Under the pieces are notes generated by a model. The model searched no databases. It had not been told where the DNA came from and was given only the letters and a program-made list of their open reading frames with translations. The position numbers and the translations under genes were made by a program. A stretch of DNA of 23,363 nucleotides from a virus, in IMG/VR virus record IMGVR_UViG_3300044731_000158, positions 1 through 23,363 of that record; one strand, given 5' to 3'. Every line of letters begins with the position of its first letter. The stretch's first letter is position 1. This document shows positions 1,334 to 22,790 of this stretch, piece after piece.

Positions 1334-1669
1334 ATGAACATTTTAACTACAAGCGCATCAGCGCAGAATTTGCAAATCATCCCTCGCTCGTTTCCTGCTT
1401 CTGTATCGGCACGGTTAACGAATGAGTCCACCAATACCACCCAAACGCAAACAATCGCTCCTACAAGCGCAAACGGTTATATGACGTTGAATGCTGCTTG
1501 GACCTTAAAGGAAGCAAACTTTTACCTATTGGAGGTATTTGATGGCGTAAATTTGATATACAGAGGTCGTGTATTCTGCACGAACCAAACAAACTTCGAG
1601 AAGTTCACGGTAAACAATGGCGTTTACACGCAAGAGCAGGCAGGAGATAACACGTTCGTAATTATATGA
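1334..1669 (+). CDS. Small beta-rich virion-region protein, unknown function
   Basis: 111 aa from ATG 1334. The frame is open upstream to a GTG at 1286, but that would start inside the terminator stem, so 1334 is the sensible start. The sequence alternates polar and hydrophobic residues with many Thr, Asn and Ser, suggesting a beta-sandwich. It ends with an aromatic segment (RGRVFCTNQTNF...FTVNNGVYT). Its stop overlaps the portal start by 4 nt (ATGA), implying translational coupling to portal synthesis. It may be a head decoration or neck protein; I do not recognise it. Confidence 0.7.
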   Translation: MNILTTSASAQNLQIIPRSFPASVSARLTNESTNTTQTQTIAPTSANGYMTLNAAWTLKEANFYLLEVFDGVNLIYRGRVFCTNQTNFEKFTVNNGVYTQEQAGDNTFVII

Positions 1670-3429
1670 GCAACATACGATTTATGGCCTTGAACTCCTA
1701 CGTTAAGCCGCAGGTAAAGGAGGTTAGTGGAAAGCAATGGATTGAGTACGGAGATGATAACAATTATTTCCAATACCTAATCGACCGCTACAATGGAAGT
1801 CCTACCAACAACGCTATTATCAATGGCGTTATTGATATGATTTTCGGCAAAGGTCTTGCAGCAACAGACGCAGCACAAAAGCCAGATGAGTACGCAATGA
1901 TGATGTCGTTGTTTACCAAGAACTGCGTTAAAAAAGTCGTTAGTGACTTTAAGATGATGGGCAATGCTGCCTTTCAGGTGATTTACAACCAAGACCATTC
2001 CAAGATTGTAGGTGTTGAGCATATCCCGGTTGAGACCTTGCGTGCTGAACGTGCAAACGAAGATGGGTTTATCCCTGCGTACTACTATGCAAAGGACTGG
2101 AATCGAGTAGCCCAACGCAAAGAGGTACCTGTACGTATTGAGGCGTTTGGTATGTCTAAAGCTGGAATCGAGATTCTGTATATTAAACCGTACAAAGCGG
2201 GATACTACTACTACGCACCCACGGACTATCAAGGTTCCTTGCCGTATGCCGAATTGGAGGAAGAGGTAGCCAACTACCATATCAGCAACATCAAGAATGG
2301 CCTAGCACCGTCAATGCTGATTAACTTCAACAACGGAACACCTACCGAAGAAGAGCAGACGTTAATCGAGGCACGTATTGCGGATAAGTTTTCTGGCAGC
2401 TCGAATGCCGGTCGGTTTATCTTGGCCTTCAACGACAACAAGGAACTCGCAGCAACAATCGAACCCGTACAATTATCAGACGCAAGCGAGCAGTACCAAT
2501 TTCTTTCGTCTGAATGTACGCAGAAGATTATGGTAGGCCACCGTGTAACGTCTCCGATGCTTTTGGGTATTAAGGACAATAGCGGCCTAGGTAACAATGC
2601 TGACGAGTTGAAGACGGCATCTATCCTGTTCGATAACGTGGTTATCCGCCCTTTACAGGAGATTATCCTGGATGCAATAGAGCAAGTGCTATCTTACAAC
2701 GGAGCGTCTCTAAACATCTATTTTAAGACGTTGCAGCCGTTGGAGTTTAAGGAGGAGATTGTTGCTCCTGCCGAGGTTATTGAAGAGAATACAGGCGTTG
2801 AGGATAGCAGCGTTGCTTTGTCTGCTGACGTGTCGGACGAAGTGCTAAACGAAATGTTTGAAACGCTAAACGAGTTTGGCGAAGACGAAGACTTGGACAA
2901 CTGGGATTTGGTGGACGAACGTCCGGTGGATTACGAGCAGGAGGAATACTTGGATTCTATTTTGCAGTTTGCCAAGACCGGGGAAGCATTCCCGAACGCA
3001 AAGAGCGAGCAAGACGGAGAAACCAAAGACGGACGTAAGTACAAGATTCGCTATTCCTACGCACCCGGAACAACCAAGACCAATAGCCGTGAGTTTTGTA
3101 AGTTGATGGTAAACGCAAAGAAGGTCTACCGCAAGGAGGATATTATGCGGATGCGGAAGCAAGAAGTTAACGCAGGATTCGGGCCACGTGGTGCATCAAC
3201 ATACGACATCTGGTTATACAAAGGAGGCGCACGTTGCCACCACTTCTGGATGCGGAAAACGTATTTGGCAAAAGCAGAAGGCGTAACTCCTGACGCTAAA
3301 AACCCGAATGCAGACGTATCGGTAAACCAAGCTCGCAAGGCAGGTGTAAAGCCAGAGGTGAACAATCCAAAGGTTGCAAAGCGCCCAGTTGATATGCCGA
3401 ATCAAGGATTCTTAAAACCACGCAAATAA
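1666..3429 (+). CDS. Portal protein with a C-terminal Cys/His extension
   Basis: 587 aa. Residues 1 to about 355 look like a phage portal: YGDDNNYFQYLIDRYNGSPT near the N-terminus, an alpha/beta body with helical stem, and GHRVTSPMLLGIKDNSGLGN around 290-310, the usual start of the helical wing. The portal forms the dodecameric DNA channel at the capsid vertex. The C-terminal 200 residues are unusual: an acidic linker (about 365-430) leads to a compact domain with SREFC at 474-478, a Y-x-K-x-D-I segment, GFGPRG, and C-H-H-F-W at 524-528, then a Lys/Pro-rich tail. That order of motifs resembles the C-terminus of Mu gpF-type minor head proteins, suggesting the portal carries a minor-head module. 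The portal call is firm; the extension is inferred from motifs. Confidence 0.88.
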   Translation: MSNIRFMALNSYVKPQVKEVSGKQWIEYGDDNNYFQYLIDRYNGSPTNNAIINGVIDMIFGKGLAATDAAQKPDEYAMMMSLFTKNCVKKVVSDFKMMGNAAFQVIYNQDHSKIVGVEHIPVETLRAERANEDGFIPAYYYAKDWNRVAQRKEVPVRIEAFGMSKAGIEILYIKPYKAGYYYYAPTDYQGSLPYAELEEEVANYHISNIKNGLAPSMLINFNNGTPTEEEQTLIEARIADKFSGSSNAGRFILAFNDNKELAATIEPVQLSDASEQYQFLSSECTQKIMVGHRVTSPMLLGIKDNSGLGNNADELKTASILFDNVVIRPLQEIILDAIEQVLSYNGASLNIYFKTLQPLEFKEEIVAPAEVIEENTGVEDSSVALSADVSDEVLNEMFETLNEFGEDEDLDNWDLVDERPVDYEQEEYLDSILQFAKTGEAFPNAKSEQDGETKDGRKYKIRYSYAPGTTKTNSREFCKLMVNAKKVYRKEDIMRMRKQEVNAGFGPRGASTYDIWLYKGGARCHHFWMRKTYLAKAEGVTPDAKNPNADVSVNQARKAGVKPEVNNPKVAKRPVDMPNQGFLKPRK

Positions 3430-12834: not shown

Positions 12835-12858
12835 TAGGGCTACGGCCCTATTTTTTTT
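12835..12858 (+). terminator. Rho-independent terminator with TACG loop
   Basis: Stem TAGGGC (12835-12840) / GCCCTA (12845-12850), TACG loop, eight T (12851-12858). It closes the helicase-to-nuclease operon. Confidence 0.88.
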
Positions 12859-12868
12859 GCATTGATGT

Positions 12869-12897
12869 TTGGTGTATTGTTTTTTTTTATATGTTTG
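12869..12897 (+). promoter_or_regulatory. Bacteroidota-type promoter for the 12919 operon
   Basis: TTG 12869-12871, 18 nt spacer, TATGTTTG 12890-12897. Identical box and spacer length to the promoter at 8773, and again followed by AACACCTAAAAC (12906-12917) and ATG 12919. It excludes the in-frame TTG start at 12862. Confidence 0.8.
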
Positions 12898-17489: not shown

Positions 17490-17715
17490 GGCGATGGGGT
17501 ACACGGATACCGATTTTATTTGCTGCGAAGTCTGCAACAGGCGAGCCGTAGACATCCATCACATCGAAACACGTGGTATGGGAGGCAGTAAACTTATGGA
17601 CACACCAGAGAACTTAATGGCCTTGTGCCGGGAGTGTCACCACGAAGCAGACTTTGGTGTTGAGTTATCCAAGGACTTCTTAAAAGCCGTACATCTTAAA
17701 AAGCTGAACAAATGA
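17461..17715 (+). CDS. HNH endonuclease, resident copy with TTG start
   Basis: 84 aa. The homologous start (MKKHTKVY...) falls on TTG 17461 inside the homing-endonuclease gene; the first ATG, 17492, would remove the first 10 residues. Zinc and catalytic marks: C-E-V-C at 23-26, A-V-D-I-H-H-I (HNH first His pair), G-M-G-G-S, E-N-L-M-A-L-C-R-E-C-H. Small HNH proteins near the terminase often assist packaging in siphophages; here a sugar cassette separates the two. Coupled by ATGA to the glycosyltransferase. Confidence 0.85.
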   Translation: MKKHTKVYIEAMGYTDTDFICCEVCNRRAVDIHHIETRGMGGSKLMDTPENLMALCRECHHEADFGVELSKDFLKAVHLKKLNK

Positions 17716-18242
17716 TTCATATCATAACACCGTGTTCCCGACCGGAGAACCTTTCAACAATCAAGGCAACCATACCGGAGGACTGCACCTGGACGGTGGT
17801 CGTTGATGAGAAAGCAACAGGCGATTTCCCAAATGGAATTACTTACCTACGTCCTAACGTCTCCGGTAGTTGGGGACACCCGCTCCGGAATGTAGGAATG
17901 GAGTTTATATTGGCTCTAAAGGCCAAGAGAGGCGATTACATCTACTTTCTTGATGACGATAACATAATCCACCCGGATTGGTACGAAGCCGTTAAAAACG
18001 AATCCTATCCGTTTATCACTTGGGGCCAGGTCTTCAAAAATGGCCAACCAAGACTCCACCCAACAAAAGAACCACGATTAGGTACGGTAGACACGGCATC
18101 GTTTATGGTACGGTGCGATGCAATCGGGGAAGTTAGATTCGGCAACGAATACGAAGCGGATGGATTGTTTGCCCAACAAATGGCTAAGTGGAACGTCAAG
18201 ACCCTTGATGCTTACCTTTGTTACTACAACTATTTGCGATGA
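17712..18242 (+). CDS. GT-A glycosyltransferase (GT2-like)
   Basis: 176 aa. Begins IHIITPCSRPENLSTIKATI, the nucleotide-sugar-binding start of GT2-type enzymes. The metal-binding D-D-D at 81-83 lies in YIYFLDDDNIIHPDW. It is short for GT2 enzymes, so a minimal catalytic domain with no membrane segment. It heads a three-gene cassette with a methyltransferase and a second glycosyltransferase, all with 4-nt overlaps. Targets could be virion proteins, DNA or host surface sugars. Confidence 0.82.
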   Translation: MIHIITPCSRPENLSTIKATIPEDCTWTVVVDEKATGDFPNGITYLRPNVSGSWGHPLRNVGMEFILALKAKRGDYIYFLDDDNIIHPDWYEAVKNESYPFITWGQVFKNGQPRLHPTKEPRLGTVDTASFMVRCDAIGEVRFGNEYEADGLFAQQMAKWNVKTLDAYLCYYNYLR

Positions 18243-18766
18243 AGCAAACAAACGAGATAGAAGGGTGGTTCAATCACCAAAACGCTTACGACTTCTTGTT
18301 AGACAAGATTCCCTCAGTAGGCACGTTCGTTGAGCTTGGCGCTTGGCTTGGCAAGTCCTCCTCGTATCTGTGCGACAAAGCAACAGGCCAACAAATAATC
18401 ATTATAGATTCTTTTAAGGGAACACAAGAATACATTGATTCTTATTATAACCTTGCCAAGACCGCAGATATCTACGAGCTATTCGTTGAGAATATGGGTA
18501 GCCGCAAATACAAAGCGATTAAAGCAACATCCAAAGCAGCATCACGCAAATTCAAAGACGAATCATTAGACGTGGTGTTTATAGACCTTAACCACTCTTA
18601 CGAATCAGTAAAGGAAGATATTGCCCTATGGCTGCCAAAGGTTAAGAAGGGTGGATATTTAGCAGGAGACGATTACCACGAGAACTGGCCAGGTGTTATC
18701 CAAGCCGTAAACGAGATGCTAAACGGGTTCACCGTAATTGATGATGCTTTTATATTTCAAAAATGA
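18239..18766 (+). CDS. SAM-dependent methyltransferase (Methyltransf_24-like)
   Basis: 175 aa from ATG 18239. Motif I V-E-L-G-A-W-L-G-K-S at 31-40 (SAM binding), an acidic residue after IIIID at about 57, and D-V-V-F-I-D-L-N-H-S-Y-E-S-V (motif IV region) followed by G-G-Y-L-A-G-D-D-Y. This is the pattern of class I O-methyltransferases such as those acting on sugars of secondary metabolites, consistent with its place between two glycosyltransferases. Sugar O-methylation is the inferred role. Confidence 0.82.
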   Translation: MKQTNEIEGWFNHQNAYDFLLDKIPSVGTFVELGAWLGKSSSYLCDKATGQQIIIIDSFKGTQEYIDSYYNLAKTADIYELFVENMGSRKYKAIKATSKAASRKFKDESLDVVFIDLNHSYESVKEDIALWLPKVKKGGYLAGDDYHENWPGVIQAVNEMLNGFTVIDDAFIFQK

Positions 18767-19743
18767 AGATACTCTGCATAGGCGACCCGGACTCCGGGGT
18801 AGTGTACCACCGCATCTATAAGCCCTTCACTCTGTTAAAGGAGAAAGGGCTTTTGGACTTTCAGATAATCAACTACAAGCAACCCATCCCCGAAGCCGAT
18901 TGGGAAGGAGTCACGCACGTTATCTTTTCTCGTGCGCTTCCGTTCACCGGGGAATCCTTTGCCAACTTCTTTGCGATTTGTAAAGCAACAGGCAAAAAAG
19001 TAATCATCGACAATGACGATTGGTGGCACCTAGCATTAGACCACCCATCAAAAGCAACATACGATAAAGCAAACCTCTCAGGACGTATTGTAAACTCAAT
19101 GTACTTTGCAGATGAGGTCTGGACTACCCAAAAGTATTTAGCCGATAAAATCAAGAAGGTAAACCGTAACGTACACATCATCCCAAACGGATTAGACCCA
19201 TCAGACCCGCAATGGCAGATTACCCGCCAAGAAGCAGACGAGGTACGATTTGGTTACGTGGCCGGCATATCACACCTTCCAGACCTTGTACAAAACAAGA
19301 TTGACCTTTCACCTTACGAATCCTATGTTGCGGACATTGGTGGATACCCACAAGCAGCTAAAGCAAGATTCGCATTAGAAACACAATCACCCAACGAATA
19401 CGGAAAACTATACCAGGCATTTGACGTTGCCCTATCACCATTAATCCCAAGTGAGTTCAACAGATGCAAGTCAAATCTTAAAATGGTAGAAGCAGGTTTT
19501 GCCGGTTGTGCGTTAATTGTAAGTGATGTAGCACCGTACTCGCAACACCTGAATAAAAATAATTGCATTGCAGTAAAGCATAAAGGAGACTGGGCAAGTG
19601 CTATCAAGTACCTACATCAGAACCCAAACAAAGCCGGTGACATCGCTTTAACACTTCACGAAGAGATGACCACCAACTTCAACATTCACGACTTCAACGA
19701 CATCCGTTTTGAACGGTTGCAAAAAATGCAACAACTGCGTTAA
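18763..19743 (+). CDS. GT-B glycosyltransferase (GT4-like)
   Basis: 326 aa, two Rossmann-like halves. N-terminal KILCIGDPDSGVVYHRIYKP, mid-section DEVWTTQKYLADKI...HIIPNGLD (about 117-145), typical of the GT4 inter-domain region, and C-terminal KSNLKMVEAGFAGCALIVSD (about 232-251), matching the nucleotide-sugar-binding E-x-x-A-x-G segment. Last gene of the sugar cassette; the terminase unit follows after 23 nt. Donor and acceptor are not predictable. Confidence 0.82.
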   Translation: MKILCIGDPDSGVVYHRIYKPFTLLKEKGLLDFQIINYKQPIPEADWEGVTHVIFSRALPFTGESFANFFAICKATGKKVIIDNDDWWHLALDHPSKATYDKANLSGRIVNSMYFADEVWTTQKYLADKIKKVNRNVHIIPNGLDPSDPQWQITRQEADEVRFGYVAGISHLPDLVQNKIDLSPYESYVADIGGYPQAAKARFALETQSPNEYGKLYQAFDVALSPLIPSEFNRCKSNLKMVEAGFAGCALIVSDVAPYSQHLNKNNCIAVKHKGDWASAIKYLHQNPNKAGDIALTLHEEMTTNFNIHDFNDIRFERLQKMQQLR

Positions 19744-19766: not shown

Positions 19767-20084
19767 ATGCCAAAAGGAAATCCAAACCTCGTCAAGGGTG
19801 GCCCACCTTTGAATCCCGCTGGCCGTCCACAAGGCGCATTAAACAAGTCAACGACCAAGATTCGGGAAGCATTCCAAAAGCTTATTGAGGATAACTTGGA
19901 GAATATGACCATCTGGTTATCTGACGTAGCAGCAGAAGACCCTAAAGCAGCACTCGACATCCTAAACAAGATGGCAGAGTACACTACGCCCAAACTTGCC
20001 CGGGTAGAGAACTCACACGAAGTAGCAGAAGAACTAACCTCAATTAAGGTAGAGATTGTCCGTTCTGGAAATCAAGACAAGTGA
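19767..20084 (+). CDS. Terminase small subunit
   Basis: 105 aa. N-terminus KGNPNLVKGGPPLNPAGRPQGALNK, a Gly/Pro/Arg-rich segment found in small terminase-type DNA-binding proteins, followed by helices (TKIREAFQKLIEDNLENMTIWL; DPKAALDILNKMAEYTTPKLAR). It would recognise packaging DNA and feed it to the large subunit, whose gene overlaps it by 29 nt. Confidence 0.78.
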   Translation: MPKGNPNLVKGGPPLNPAGRPQGALNKSTTKIREAFQKLIEDNLENMTIWLSDVAAEDPKAALDILNKMAEYTTPKLARVENSHEVAEELTSIKVEIVRSGNQDK

Positions 20085-21216
20085 GTTGTTTGAGCGCAAC
20101 TATACTGCGCCAACTCGTATTGTCGTAAACCAAGGCGGTAGCCGTTCTGGTAAGACTTATTCCATTCTTCAAATGCTGGTTATTCTGGCAATGCAAGAAC
20201 GGGGTAAGGTTATCTCTATTGTCCGTAAATCGCTTCCATCATTAAAGATGACGGCCTACCGTGACTTTATGGAAATCGTAAAGGCAATGGAGTTGTACGA
20301 TGAAAAGCACCACAACAAATCAGACCTTACCTACACGCTAAACGGAAACCTATTTGAGTTCCTATCCCTTGACCAACCGCAAAAGAAGCGAGGAGCAAGA
20401 CGTGATTACCTATTCTGCAACGAAGCAAACGAACTGACTTGGGAAGACTTCTTTCAGTTGTTGGTTCGTACCACCGGGAAGATATGGATTGACTACAACC
20501 CGTCCGAGTCGTTCCACTGGATATATGACCGACTGCTTACACGTGACGATGTAACGTACATTCAATCCACCTACAAGGATAACCCATTCCTTGACCCTAA
20601 CATTGTATCGGAGATTGAACGCCTGCAATACACGGACGAAGACTATTGGCGTATCTACGGCCTTGGTGAACGTGGTATGAGCCGTGCTACAATCTTTCAA
20701 TTCGGAATGTCTGAAATACCCCAAGAAGCAAAACTTATTAGTTATGGACTTGACTTTGGTTACACCAACGACCCCAGCGCACTTGTGGCAGTCTACACAC
20801 ACGGGGATAACCTTTACCTGGATGAGTTGCTCTACCGGACGGGGATGACCAACCGTGACCTCCATCACCACCTACAATCGTTAGGACTTGACCGGAGGGA
20901 TGAAATCTTTGCGGACTCTGCCGAACCTAAATCTATTGAAGAGCTGCACCGGTTCGGTTGGAACGTAAAGCCAACTGCCAAAGGTCAGGATTCGATTAAC
21001 GCAGGTATTGATATCCTGAAGCGGCACAAGATATTTGCCACGTCAAGGAGCAACAATCTAATTAAAGAATTGCAGAACTACAAATGGACGGAGGATAAGA
21101 ACGGCAATCTTTTGAATAAACCTATTGACGTAATGAATCACGCATTGGATGCGAGCAGATATGCGGTTTATAACAAATTGTCCAAGCCGAATTACGGGCG
21201 TTATTCTATTAGGTGA
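20056..21216 (+). CDS. terL: Terminase large subunit (packaging ATPase and nuclease)
   Basis: 386 aa. ATPase: Walker A G-G-S-R-S-G-K-T at 27-34, Walker B with catalytic Glu in Y-L-F-C-N-E-A-N-E (about 117-125). RNase H-like nuclease: G-L-D-F-G-Y-T-N-D-P-S-A (about 231-242), F-A-D-S-A-E-P-K-S, and D-V-M-N-H-A-L-D-A-x-R-Y at the end. Terminase_3/PBSX type. No ATG exists before residue 40, which is past Walker A, so translation must start at a non-ATG codon: TTG 20056 is most likely, with CTG 20065 or TTG 20086 as alternatives. Most of the region before Walker A overlaps the small-subunit gene, so coupling may drive initiation. Confidence 0.92.
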   Translation: MSVLEIKTSELFERNYTAPTRIVVNQGGSRSGKTYSILQMLVILAMQERGKVISIVRKSLPSLKMTAYRDFMEIVKAMELYDEKHHNKSDLTYTLNGNLFEFLSLDQPQKKRGARRDYLFCNEANELTWEDFFQLLVRTTGKIWIDYNPSESFHWIYDRLLTRDDVTYIQSTYKDNPFLDPNIVSEIERLQYTDEDYWRIYGLGERGMSRATIFQFGMSEIPQEAKLISYGLDFGYTNDPSALVAVYTHGDNLYLDELLYRTGMTNRDLHHHLQSLGLDRRDEIFADSAEPKSIEELHRFGWNVKPTAKGQDSINAGIDILKRHKIFATSRSNNLIKELQNYKWTEDKNGNLLNKPIDVMNHALDASRYAVYNKLSKPNYGRYSIR

Positions 21217-21236
21217 AAATTTTTTTTGTGTAAATG

Positions 21237-21266
21237 TTGCACGTATTAAAAATCTGTGTAGTTTTA
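21237..21266 (+). promoter_or_regulatory. Promoter for the 21298 gene
   Basis: TTG 21237-21239, 19 nt spacer, TAGTTTTA 21259-21266 (one mismatch to TAnnTTTG). Followed by leader copy 3 (21278-21289). Confidence 0.62.
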
Positions 21267-21277
21267 CCACATCAAAC

Positions 21278-21289
21278 AACACCTAAAAC
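21278..21289 (+). repeat. Repeated 5'-leader motif AACACCTAAAAC, copy 3 of 3
   Basis: Exact copy of the 12-mer at 8810 and 12906, followed by AAAACAAA and ATG 21298, which resembles the leader of the 299 gene. Confidence 0.7.
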
Positions 21290-21297
21290 AAAACAAA

Positions 21298-21540
21298 ATG
21301 AAAAACGCAACAATCGTCCTCGAAGCTTCAAACGCATCTTTCGCCTACCGCATCGTGCGCAACCCTAACGGAGTTCTTGCTTCTAACGGTAAAGACCACG
21401 AGTGGGAACTTCAAGTAAACCACGGAACGGGATTCGAGTTTCAAATGAGCTACAACTTCCCAGAGACCGCACGAAAGTCAATCCAGCGGGGAGTACGATA
21501 CGCTGACGAACTCTGGGGGAAGTTAGGATACCAGATGTAA
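21298..21540 (+). CDS. Small monocistronic protein of unknown function
   Basis: 80 aa. Beta-like N-terminal half (ATIVLEASNASFAYRIVRNPNGVL, EWELQVNHGTGFEFQM) and a basic helical end (RKSIQRGVRYADELWGKLGY). It has its own promoter, leader and terminator, unusual in this compact genome, which suggests independent and probably strong expression. No family recognised. Confidence 0.75.
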   Translation: MKNATIVLEASNASFAYRIVRNPNGVLASNGKDHEWELQVNHGTGFEFQMSYNFPETARKSIQRGVRYADELWGKLGYQM

Positions 21541-21546
21541 AACAAG

Positions 21547-21568
21547 GCCACCTCCGGGTGGCTTTTTT
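21547..21568 (+). terminator. Rho-independent terminator with TCCG loop
   Basis: Stem GCCACC (21547-21552) / GGTGGC (21557-21562), TCCG loop, six T (21563-21568). Confidence 0.88.
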
Positions 21569-21574
21569 ATGCGC

Positions 21575-21582
21575 TATATTTG
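21575..21582 (+). promoter_or_regulatory. TAnnTTTG box ahead of the tail-chaperone gene
   Basis: TATATTTG is a full match and lies 19 nt before ATG 21602, directly behind a terminator. No TTG is seen at the proper upstream distance, because the terminator stem is there, so this promoter is probable but weak. Confidence 0.48.
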
Positions 21583-21601
21583 CGTAAAGAGTTATTTACG
21601 T

Positions 21602-22267
21602 ATGGAACTTAAATTAGTAGTACCAACATCGCTTGATGAAATCACGCTAGACCAATACCAGCGCTTTGCTCGTATTGAAGGCGAAGGTGAGTTCAAGCAA
21701 ATGAAGATGTTAGAAATCTTCTGCAATGTTCCATTCTCCGACCTGCCGAACGTCCGCCTGGTGGATGCCGTCAACGTCCTAAACACCTTGACCAAGACCC
21801 TATCTGAAAAGCCAGGTCTTACAAAGTTTATAGATTTAAAGGGAACCAAGTACGGATTTATCCCTGCCCTAAATGAAATCTCGTTAGGCGAATTCGTAGA
21901 CTTGGATAGTTACATTTCTGATTGGGCAACAATGCACAAGGCAATGTCGGTATTGTACCGTCCGGTAACAAAAGAGAAAGGAGAACGCTACGATATTGAA
22001 CCGTACACGGCAACAGATGAGCGAGACGAGATAATGAAAGAGATGCCCGCTTCGGTAGTGCTTGGAGCGCTGGTTTTTTTTTATCGTTTAGGGAACGTAT
22101 TAGCAACACATACGTTGCGCTCTTTGGCCAAACAACAGACAACCCCTACACAAGAGAAGCGCAGTTCGGACAAAAGTGGGGATGGTATCAATCCATCTAT
22201 GCACTTGCTGATGGAGATGTCCTCAAATTTGGAGACGTTACTAAACTTCCCGTCCACCAAGCTCTAA
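21602..22267 (+). CDS. Tail assembly chaperone-like protein, zero-frame product (G-like)
   Basis: 221 aa from ATG 21602; upstream in-frame codons to 21569 cover the promoter box and are excluded. Helical, acidic (LVVPTSLDEITLDQYQRFARIEG; KYGFIPALNEISLGEFVDLDSYI; MHKAMSVLYRPV), no membrane segment. The frame crosses a T9 run at 22074-22082 and continues about 60 codons to TAA 22265-22267, ending with a plausible sequence (KSGDGINPSMHLLMEM...). By analogy with lambda gpG, such a protein would bind the tape-measure protein during tail assembly. Family assignment rests on the frameshift architecture and on neighbours (tail-completion-type genes). Confidence 0.75.
   Translation: MELKLVVPTSLDEITLDQYQRFARIEGEGEFKQMKMLEIFCNVPFSDLPNVRLVDAVNVLNTLTKTLSEKPGLTKFIDLKGTKYGFIPALNEISLGEFVDLDSYISDWATMHKAMSVLYRPVTKEKGERYDIEPYTATDERDEIMKEMPASVVLGALVFFYRLGNVLATHTLRSLAKQQTTPTQEKRSSDKSGDGINPSMHLLMEMSSNLETLLNFPSTKL
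22075..22116 (+). other. Putative -1 programmed ribosomal frameshift signal
   Basis: T-TTT-TTT at 22075-22081, in register with the zero-frame codons TTT (22076) and TTT (22079), is an ideal X-XXY-YYZ slippery heptamer. A perfect 7-bp inverted repeat AACGTAT (22094-22100) / ATACGTT (22110-22116) with a 9-nt loop begins 12 nt after the heptamer's last base-pairing codon. A competing stem GCAAC/GTTGC (22103-22118) overlaps it. Confidence 0.72.
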
Positions 22268-22326
22268 CGTATTTGACGTTTGAAAAAGAGAAAAACGATA
22301 TTGAATTAGCAATGATGAAGAAATGA
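22081..22326 (+). CDS. Minus-1 frame extension of the tail assembly chaperone (T-like), joined to 21602-22081
   Basis: After a -1 slip at the T run, reading continues from TTA 22081 for 81 codons to TGA 22324-22326, giving a 241-residue fusion. The extension reads as real protein (NPYTREAQFGQKWGWYQSIY, ADGDVLKFGDVTKLPVHQAL, EKEKNDIELAMMKK). This frame is open only from 22021, after TGA 22018-22020, and has no ATG, GTG or TTG before its last 25 codons, so it cannot start by itself. Its TGA overlaps the next gene's ATG as ATGA, the junction type found throughout this genome. A wrong T count in the homopolymer (true length 10) would also join the frames. Confidence 0.78.
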   Translation, partial: LSFRERISNTYVALFGQTTDNPYTREAQFGQKWGWYQSIYALADGDVLKFGDVTKLPVHQALTYLTFEKEKNDIELAMMKK

Positions 22327-22790
22327 GAAGTTTTTATTTAGCCACCCAAAAGATTAACGATTACCTATCCTCACACCCCTTGGTTAAGGTGGTAACCTTT
22401 GGCGATATCTTCGATGTTGACCTGAACAAGCAGACCATCTTTCCGTTGGCGCACATTATGGTTAACCAGGCCACATTCGCAGACCACGTAATACGCTTTA
22501 ATGTATCGGTCTTGTGTATGGATATCGTAGACGAAACCAAGCAGGACATTCGCAACCAGAACGAGCCGTTCTTTGGCGTGGATAACCAGCAAGATATTCT
22601 GAACACGACTCTTGCTATCTTGAACGGATTGCAATCGCAACTACGCAGAGGCACGTTGTACACGGATAAGTTTGAGATTGAAGGTGACATTATCTGCGAG
22701 CCGTTCACGGAGCGATTTGAGAACCTGCTAACGGGATGGAACCTGACCTTTGATATGATTGTTCCCAATACCGAAATCTCTATCTGCTAA
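22323..22790 (+). CDS. Tail terminator/completion-like protein
   Basis: 155 aa, alpha/beta. Begins RSFYLATQKINDYLSSHPLVK, then VVTFGDIFDVDLNKQTIFPLAHIMV, the start-helix and strand layout common to small tail-terminator or tail-completion proteins. The central part lists strands around VIRFNVSVLCMDIVDE. It lies between the chaperone-like gene and an HK97 gp10-like gene, joined by ATGA and TAATG overlaps. Function is inferred from order and fold pattern. Confidence 0.6.
   Translation: MRSFYLATQKINDYLSSHPLVKVVTFGDIFDVDLNKQTIFPLAHIMVNQATFADHVIRFNVSVLCMDIVDETKQDIRNQNEPFFGVDNQQDILNTTLAILNGLQSQLRRGTLYTDKFEIEGDIICEPFTERFENLLTGWNLTFDMIVPNTEISIC

Follow-up and report, generated by a model that had tools for sequence, protein, structure and literature searches.

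The locus described here raises the question of whether a single late gene of a phage gives two proteins through a shift of reading frame at a run of nine thymines and, if so, which machine slips there and why both frames stay open beyond the run. The window, by which we mean the whole stretch of DNA analysed, is a 23,363-base virus record with terminase, portal and late genes. We lean towards a reading in which one gene would yield two chaperone-like virion-assembly proteins, mainly by slippage of RNA polymerase at T9, the tail of the shorter protein being overprinted on the T domain of the longer.

The T9 run, its two frames and its relatives

The gene and its surroundings comprise the following features of the window:

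1666-3429: portal
20056-21216, plus strand: terminase large subunit (Pfam Terminase_3), directly upstream of G in relatives (gene order of locus L402)
21602-22267, plus strand: 0-frame open reading frame, the short product G (221 aa)
21602-22326, plus strand: predicted long product GT (241 aa)
22048-22072, plus strand: terminator-like stem directly 5' of the T run (-8.2 kcal/mol in the window)
22074-22082, plus strand: T9 slip run, inside the 221-codon open reading frame
22075-22081, plus strand: in-register heptamer T_TTT_TTT, found in 87 of 87 lineages
22082-22267, plus strand: dual-coding stretch, 0-frame tail over T domain, marked by the openness test and by synonymous suppression
22094-22116, plus strand: 7-bp hairpin AACGTAT/ATACGTT, not conserved and probably without a role
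22268-22326, plus strand: end of T in the -1 frame only, with the ATGA junction; synonymous rate back towards the control
22323-22790, plus strand: next gene (155 aa), overlapping the T stop

The codons at the slip, read from 22073, are GTT TTT TTT TAT. Normal reading would give G, composed of 160 residues in common with GT and a 61-residue 0-frame tail (61 codons and the stop, 186 nt), and the fraction shifted by -1 at T9 would give GT, with the conserved T domain as its last 81 residues. GT would be built from residues 1-160 in frame 0 (21602-22081) and 81 residues in the -1 frame (22081-22323), with its stop at 22324-22326; a T peptide in the window's phage would be, for example, WGWYQSIYALADGDVLK. 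From 22081 to 22326 the -1 frame is open for 81 aa, holds no ATG, GTG or TTG until a TTG within its last 25 codons, and ends in an ATGA overlap with the gene at 22323, a junction found in 48 of the 87 lineages. The run, the U-UUU-UUU heptamer, the overlap of about 186 nt and the extent of the -1 frame given in the initial annotation were all correct on re-reading of the sequence, and its remarks on the missing early start and on the ATGA ending were verified by reading of the open frames.

To collect relatives, viral contigs were searched at the protein level with G, T and their alignments, and one scan of bacterial genomes and genome searches were added. The T run was never used as a query criterion. 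These searches yielded about 480 loci, which were reduced to <80% nucleotide identity to define lineages (n=87). Both frames are kept in the ~480 loci, and essentially every complete relative fetched has the same T run, the same register and two open frames. Among the lineages, 80 have T9, six have T10 and one (L321/L322) has T8, with T_TTT_TTT always in register; the residue that follows FF is Y, W, L, F or S in the 0 frame, and L or F in the -1 frame. The 0-frame tail varies between 16 and 86 codons across the family, mostly 48-65, and is short (16-25 codons) on the Inhavirus side. Matches in bacterial genomes were few, with T9 in all readable ones, and a tblastn search of cultured phages with the window's own T gave no match. 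The arrangement is well beyond chance.

The cultured members are two, on Bacteroidota. These are the Nonlabens phages P12024L and P12024S (Inhavirus), whose genes 40 and 41 are the same gene with the same T9 and the same -1 T domain, differing in a 0-frame tail of only 25 codons. Their records split the gene into two unrelated hypothetical proteins, with part of the T domain covered by a separately annotated open reading frame; gene 41 (JQ823123 24473-24640; JQ823122 23663-23830) is probably no separate gene and represents the C-terminal end of what gene 40 yields by frameshifting.

Two loci deserve mention on their own. A 4-nt deletion within the overlap exchanges the two tails in L022/L145 (IMGVR_UViG_3300043399_000119), the one exception in the family; the -1 frame there enters the 0-frame tail and the 0 frame is truncated, through either a mutation or an assembly error. 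L413 (G238:C1, about position 2,638,661), with an identical T9, sits 2.6 Mb along a contig in a genome of 3.9 Mb, and from this position some members of the family are probably integrated prophages.

RNA polymerase or ribosome at the run

At the T9, RNA polymerase would add one U to a fraction of the mRNAs, and the resulting U10 messages would be translated straight into T; a contribution from -1 slippage of the ribosome on U_UUU_UUU is possible. The register does not discriminate between these mechanisms, since any T9 contains an in-register heptamer. The RNA polymerase of E. coli slips on at least 7 T's, T runs being favoured (PMC6260861), slippage of high efficiency occurs in vivo at 9 A/T (PMC5009743), and Tn with n>8 is used for transcriptional realignment (PMC3711429). 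By these same three reports, the T8-T10 of all lineages is long enough for bacterial RNA polymerase, which needs ~7-9 T.

The eighth T of the run allows the two machines to be compared. A C at this position would alter neither protein (TTT to TTC, TTR to CTR) and would turn the heptamer into U_UUU_UUC, yet C is found there in 0 of 79 lineages. By comparison, C stands at 36% of such sites in the other -1-frame Leu codons within the overlap, and at codon index 13, a conserved Leu, the count is 27 C:33 T. The integrity of the run is thus conserved beyond the needs of the codons and of the heptamer. In E. coli, U_UUC is a better shifting tetramer than U_UUU, and the efficient heptamers include those of the H_HHU_UUY type (PMC4066793). 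The uninterrupted run would therefore matter, because U_UUU_UUC shifts at least equally in E. coli and yet is never seen, and ribosomal shifting alone should tolerate the C, because U_UUU_UUC is shift-prone on E. coli ribosomes, the rules of shifting and of polymerase slippage being known from E. coli rather than from Bacteroidota.

The alternative that survives best is -1 programmed ribosomal frameshifting, in which the P- and A-site tRNA-Phe would slip on U_UUU_UUU and produce the same two proteins, and we regard it as possible, if on balance rather doubtful. Ribosomal shifting is the known mechanism for most phage tail chaperones, lambda itself shifting at a low level (PMC5009743), and U_UUU_UUU figures in a published list of motifs at which unstimulated shifting is measurable in E. 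coli (PMC4066793); moreover, the heptamer is intact even in the T8 lineage, whose short run is a point against polymerase slippage. What weighs against the ribosome is the strict exclusion of U_UUU_UUC at the doubly synonymous site, together with a family devoid of any other heptamer type: relatives with a different slip heptamer were searched for and none was found, all having T8-T10. A stimulatory structure is likewise not conserved, although this is not an obligatory feature of such shifting.

The hairpin, considered as a possible stimulator, exists in the window, but it is not the minimum-energy fold (z -1.17), and downstream RNA structure has a mean z of about 0 over both 40 and 87 lineages, with none conserved; the hairpin was rejected as a stimulator for this lack of conservation. 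The terminator-like stem upstream of the run, also with a mean z of about 0 among lineages, was rejected as a conserved element on the same ground.

The label of programmed -1 frameshift, as first applied to this gene, stands for the shift into the -1 frame; as to its cause, slippage of the polymerase is at least as likely as that of the ribosome. The pattern at the eighth T slightly favours transcriptional slippage over ribosomal frameshifting for the main role, without proving it. Whether the wider statement holds, namely that a large and mainly environmental phage family makes G and GT by programmed transcriptional slippage at T9, with a selected tail overprinted on T, we judge to be an even call. 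If it does, this would be a phage assembly gene in which slippage by the polymerase and by the ribosome differ in a testable way, by the presence or absence of U10 mRNA.

Dual coding and the single-chain homologues

When the codons of the -1 protein were resampled, the 0 frame stayed open to its observed length in ~4% of the draws for a lineage (P about 0.04); the third frame is closed within a few codons almost everywhere. The synonymous rate was measured as the fraction of same-residue codons that differ between independent pairs, taking the -1 frame in the overlap. It was 0.33 upstream and 0.345 in the next gene, which served as controls, 0.068 over the overlap's first 20 codons and 0.206 over its remainder, rising again to 0.293 after the 0-frame stop, where the change of rate is located; the ratio of the distal to the upstream rate has a 95% bootstrap CI of 0.54-0.70, and all these selection figures, coming from pairwise tests on lineages that are not independent, are strong indications rather than exact probabilities. 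Only 4.3% of the -1-synonymous changes would give a stop in the 0 frame, and the changes are conservative in that frame (BLOSUM -0.8 vs -1.3 expected).

As judged from these codon patterns, the dual coding is real and the 0-frame tail is under selection. The first impression that both frames look protein-like is borne out by conservation and constraint, which are present in both across relatives. It could be considered that the tail is a by-product, open for no protein reason, which would fit either slippage mechanism and would be in keeping with its shortness on the Inhavirus side and with the low AlphaFold confidence of its distal part. We consider this improbable, given the result of the openness test, a synonymous suppression greater than avoidance of stops would bring about, and the conservative nature of the 0-frame changes. 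In the AlphaFold model of G (pTM 0.74) a helix spanning residues 150-180 crosses the slip, and the first ~16-20 residues of the tail, which form the end of this helix, are probably its essential part.

The long product is homologous from end to end to proteins encoded in one frame. The fused GT profile aligned with a single-ORF family over columns 9-259 of 262 (hhalign E 4.9e-15), and the profile of the short form aligned with E 1.3e-10, its match stopping before the end of the T domain. Since the GT profile aligns in this way, the predicted frameshifted product has full-length unshifted homologues. These belong to Duneviridae and other phages, among them Flavobacterium phages 2A and laban6-1, Cellulophaga phage Ingeline, Polaribacter phage Leef and a phage deposited as Microcystis phage Mea-Yong924-1; they hold G and T in one frame of 260-302 aa, with a junction that lacks the T run. 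They were reached via Flavobacterium phage 6H, in whose record (KC959568, L491 10352-10927) the G-T homologue is disrupted, probably by sequencing errors of that record, the frame being intact in 2A. Near-identical phages having one intact open frame, 6H was rejected as a shifted homologue and left out of the evidence.

On the strength of the profile alignments, this phage protein, a single chain in other phages, is encoded here in a shifted and dual-coded form, and the 0-frame tail is probably overprinted on an older T domain. The earlier proposal of a programmed -1 shift with about 186 nt of dual coding is upheld by the conservation and constraint of both frames and by the homology of GT to unshifted proteins. 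If this is true, nature would provide a comparison between phages that make the same long protein from a single frame and phages that use a shift for it, from which one could ask for the purpose of the short form and of the ratio of short to long; the gene would also be a clean case of overprinting, with an old T domain and a younger selected tail in another frame.

A reading without any shift, in which internal initiation or translational coupling would produce the T domain as a protein of its own, we find very unlikely. Such a start has its model in the P12024L/S GenBank records, where gene 41 is a short frame with an ATG inside T, and an ATG of this kind is present in 6 of the 87 lineages; against this, 77 of the 87 lack a start codon between the slip and the WGWY motif, the window has none before the last 25 codons, the conserved LSFRER segment would be lost, and the homologues hold G and T in one chain. 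The reading of the T9 as a sequencing or assembly error of one continuous frame with a true T10, for which the proneness of homopolymers to error and the continuous frame of the distant relatives might speak, has a negligible probability and was ruled out, because the T9, with an identical frame relation, recurs in hundreds of separate assemblies and in both sequenced cultured phages, and because the 0-frame tail has a selection signal of its own.

Comparison with known systems and putative function

Two products with a common N terminus made by a -1 shift are found in lambda (gpG/gpGT), HK97 (gp13/14), P2 (E/E+E') and D29 (24/25); the sequence signature of the same arrangement is present here in 87 lineages, which would thus make two such products. 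As in lambda-type pairs, the proteins are small, belong to a late operon and lie upstream of a tape-measure-like gene. The differences are considerable: lambda and P2 slip 5 and 6 codons before the stop of the short product, compared with 61 here (16-86 in the family), and lambda-type chaperones showed no sequence homology to G and T, whose gene always has T8-T10 as its slip run, with a terminase as neighbour and the tape measure several genes away. HIV-1 gag/pol is a case in which the 0 frame goes on encoding functional protein for tens of codons beyond the shift site; here the setting is a dsDNA phage, and the stimulatory RNA structure was not found. Thermus dnaX and the realignment in Shigella mxiE also have nine identical A/T, conserved integrity of the run and two products (PMC5009743, PMC3711429), and differ from the present case, which is a phage structural-assembly gene with long, selected dual coding and putative slippage.

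The label of tail-chaperone-like is plausible by analogy and context, and found no counterpart in matches to known chaperones by sequence or fold. G matches PHROG phrog_32199 (E 1e-23), an entry that carries no functional name; PHROGs and Pfam gave neither a functional name nor a chaperone match for G or T, the PDB gave no match for either by sequence or by fold, and hhalign comparison with lambda G and T, HK97 gp13, P2 E and D29 24 stayed below 1% probability. Fold searches of viral models found uncharacterised phage proteins, some of which match both the G and the T model in one chain, and one weak BFVD match to an annotated chaperone (E 0.22).

The order of genes does not appear to be the classical one of tail protein, chaperone and tape measure. 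In the window's relatives the tape-measure-like gene is found 4-5 genes downstream, and the major tail protein was not identified with certainty; as tape-measure probes, phrog_3336 had matches in 8 of 19 records and Pfam TMP_3 had none. In Ingeline an annotated TP901-type tape measure is three genes downstream. By analogy, it is plausible that G and GT are a virion-assembly pair of putative tail-chaperone type, which may act like lambda G/GT, with G in large excess over GT on the tape measure and T reaching the tail tube. We do not file the pair in the lambda family, because homology is not detectable, the slip is far from the 3' end and the gene order seems unusual, though by analogy it would work like the lambda pair.

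Other parts of the window were noted in passing. Between the terminase and G (21217-21601) lies an exchangeable cassette with a promoter-like leader, a small open reading frame and a terminator-like stem. Compared with L056, L043/L123 and L031, the flanks of this cassette are 92-99% identical and the open frame differs, occurring in versions of 80 aa, about 62 aa and 85 aa; most relatives have no cassette, and the site resembles a moron slot. Close together in a non-structural region (12851-12888) stand a T8 (12851) and a second T9 (12880). At 17712-19743, from a reading of the translations, two predicted glycosyltransferase-type proteins flank a methyltransferase-like protein, an unusual cargo for a phage of ~30 kb.
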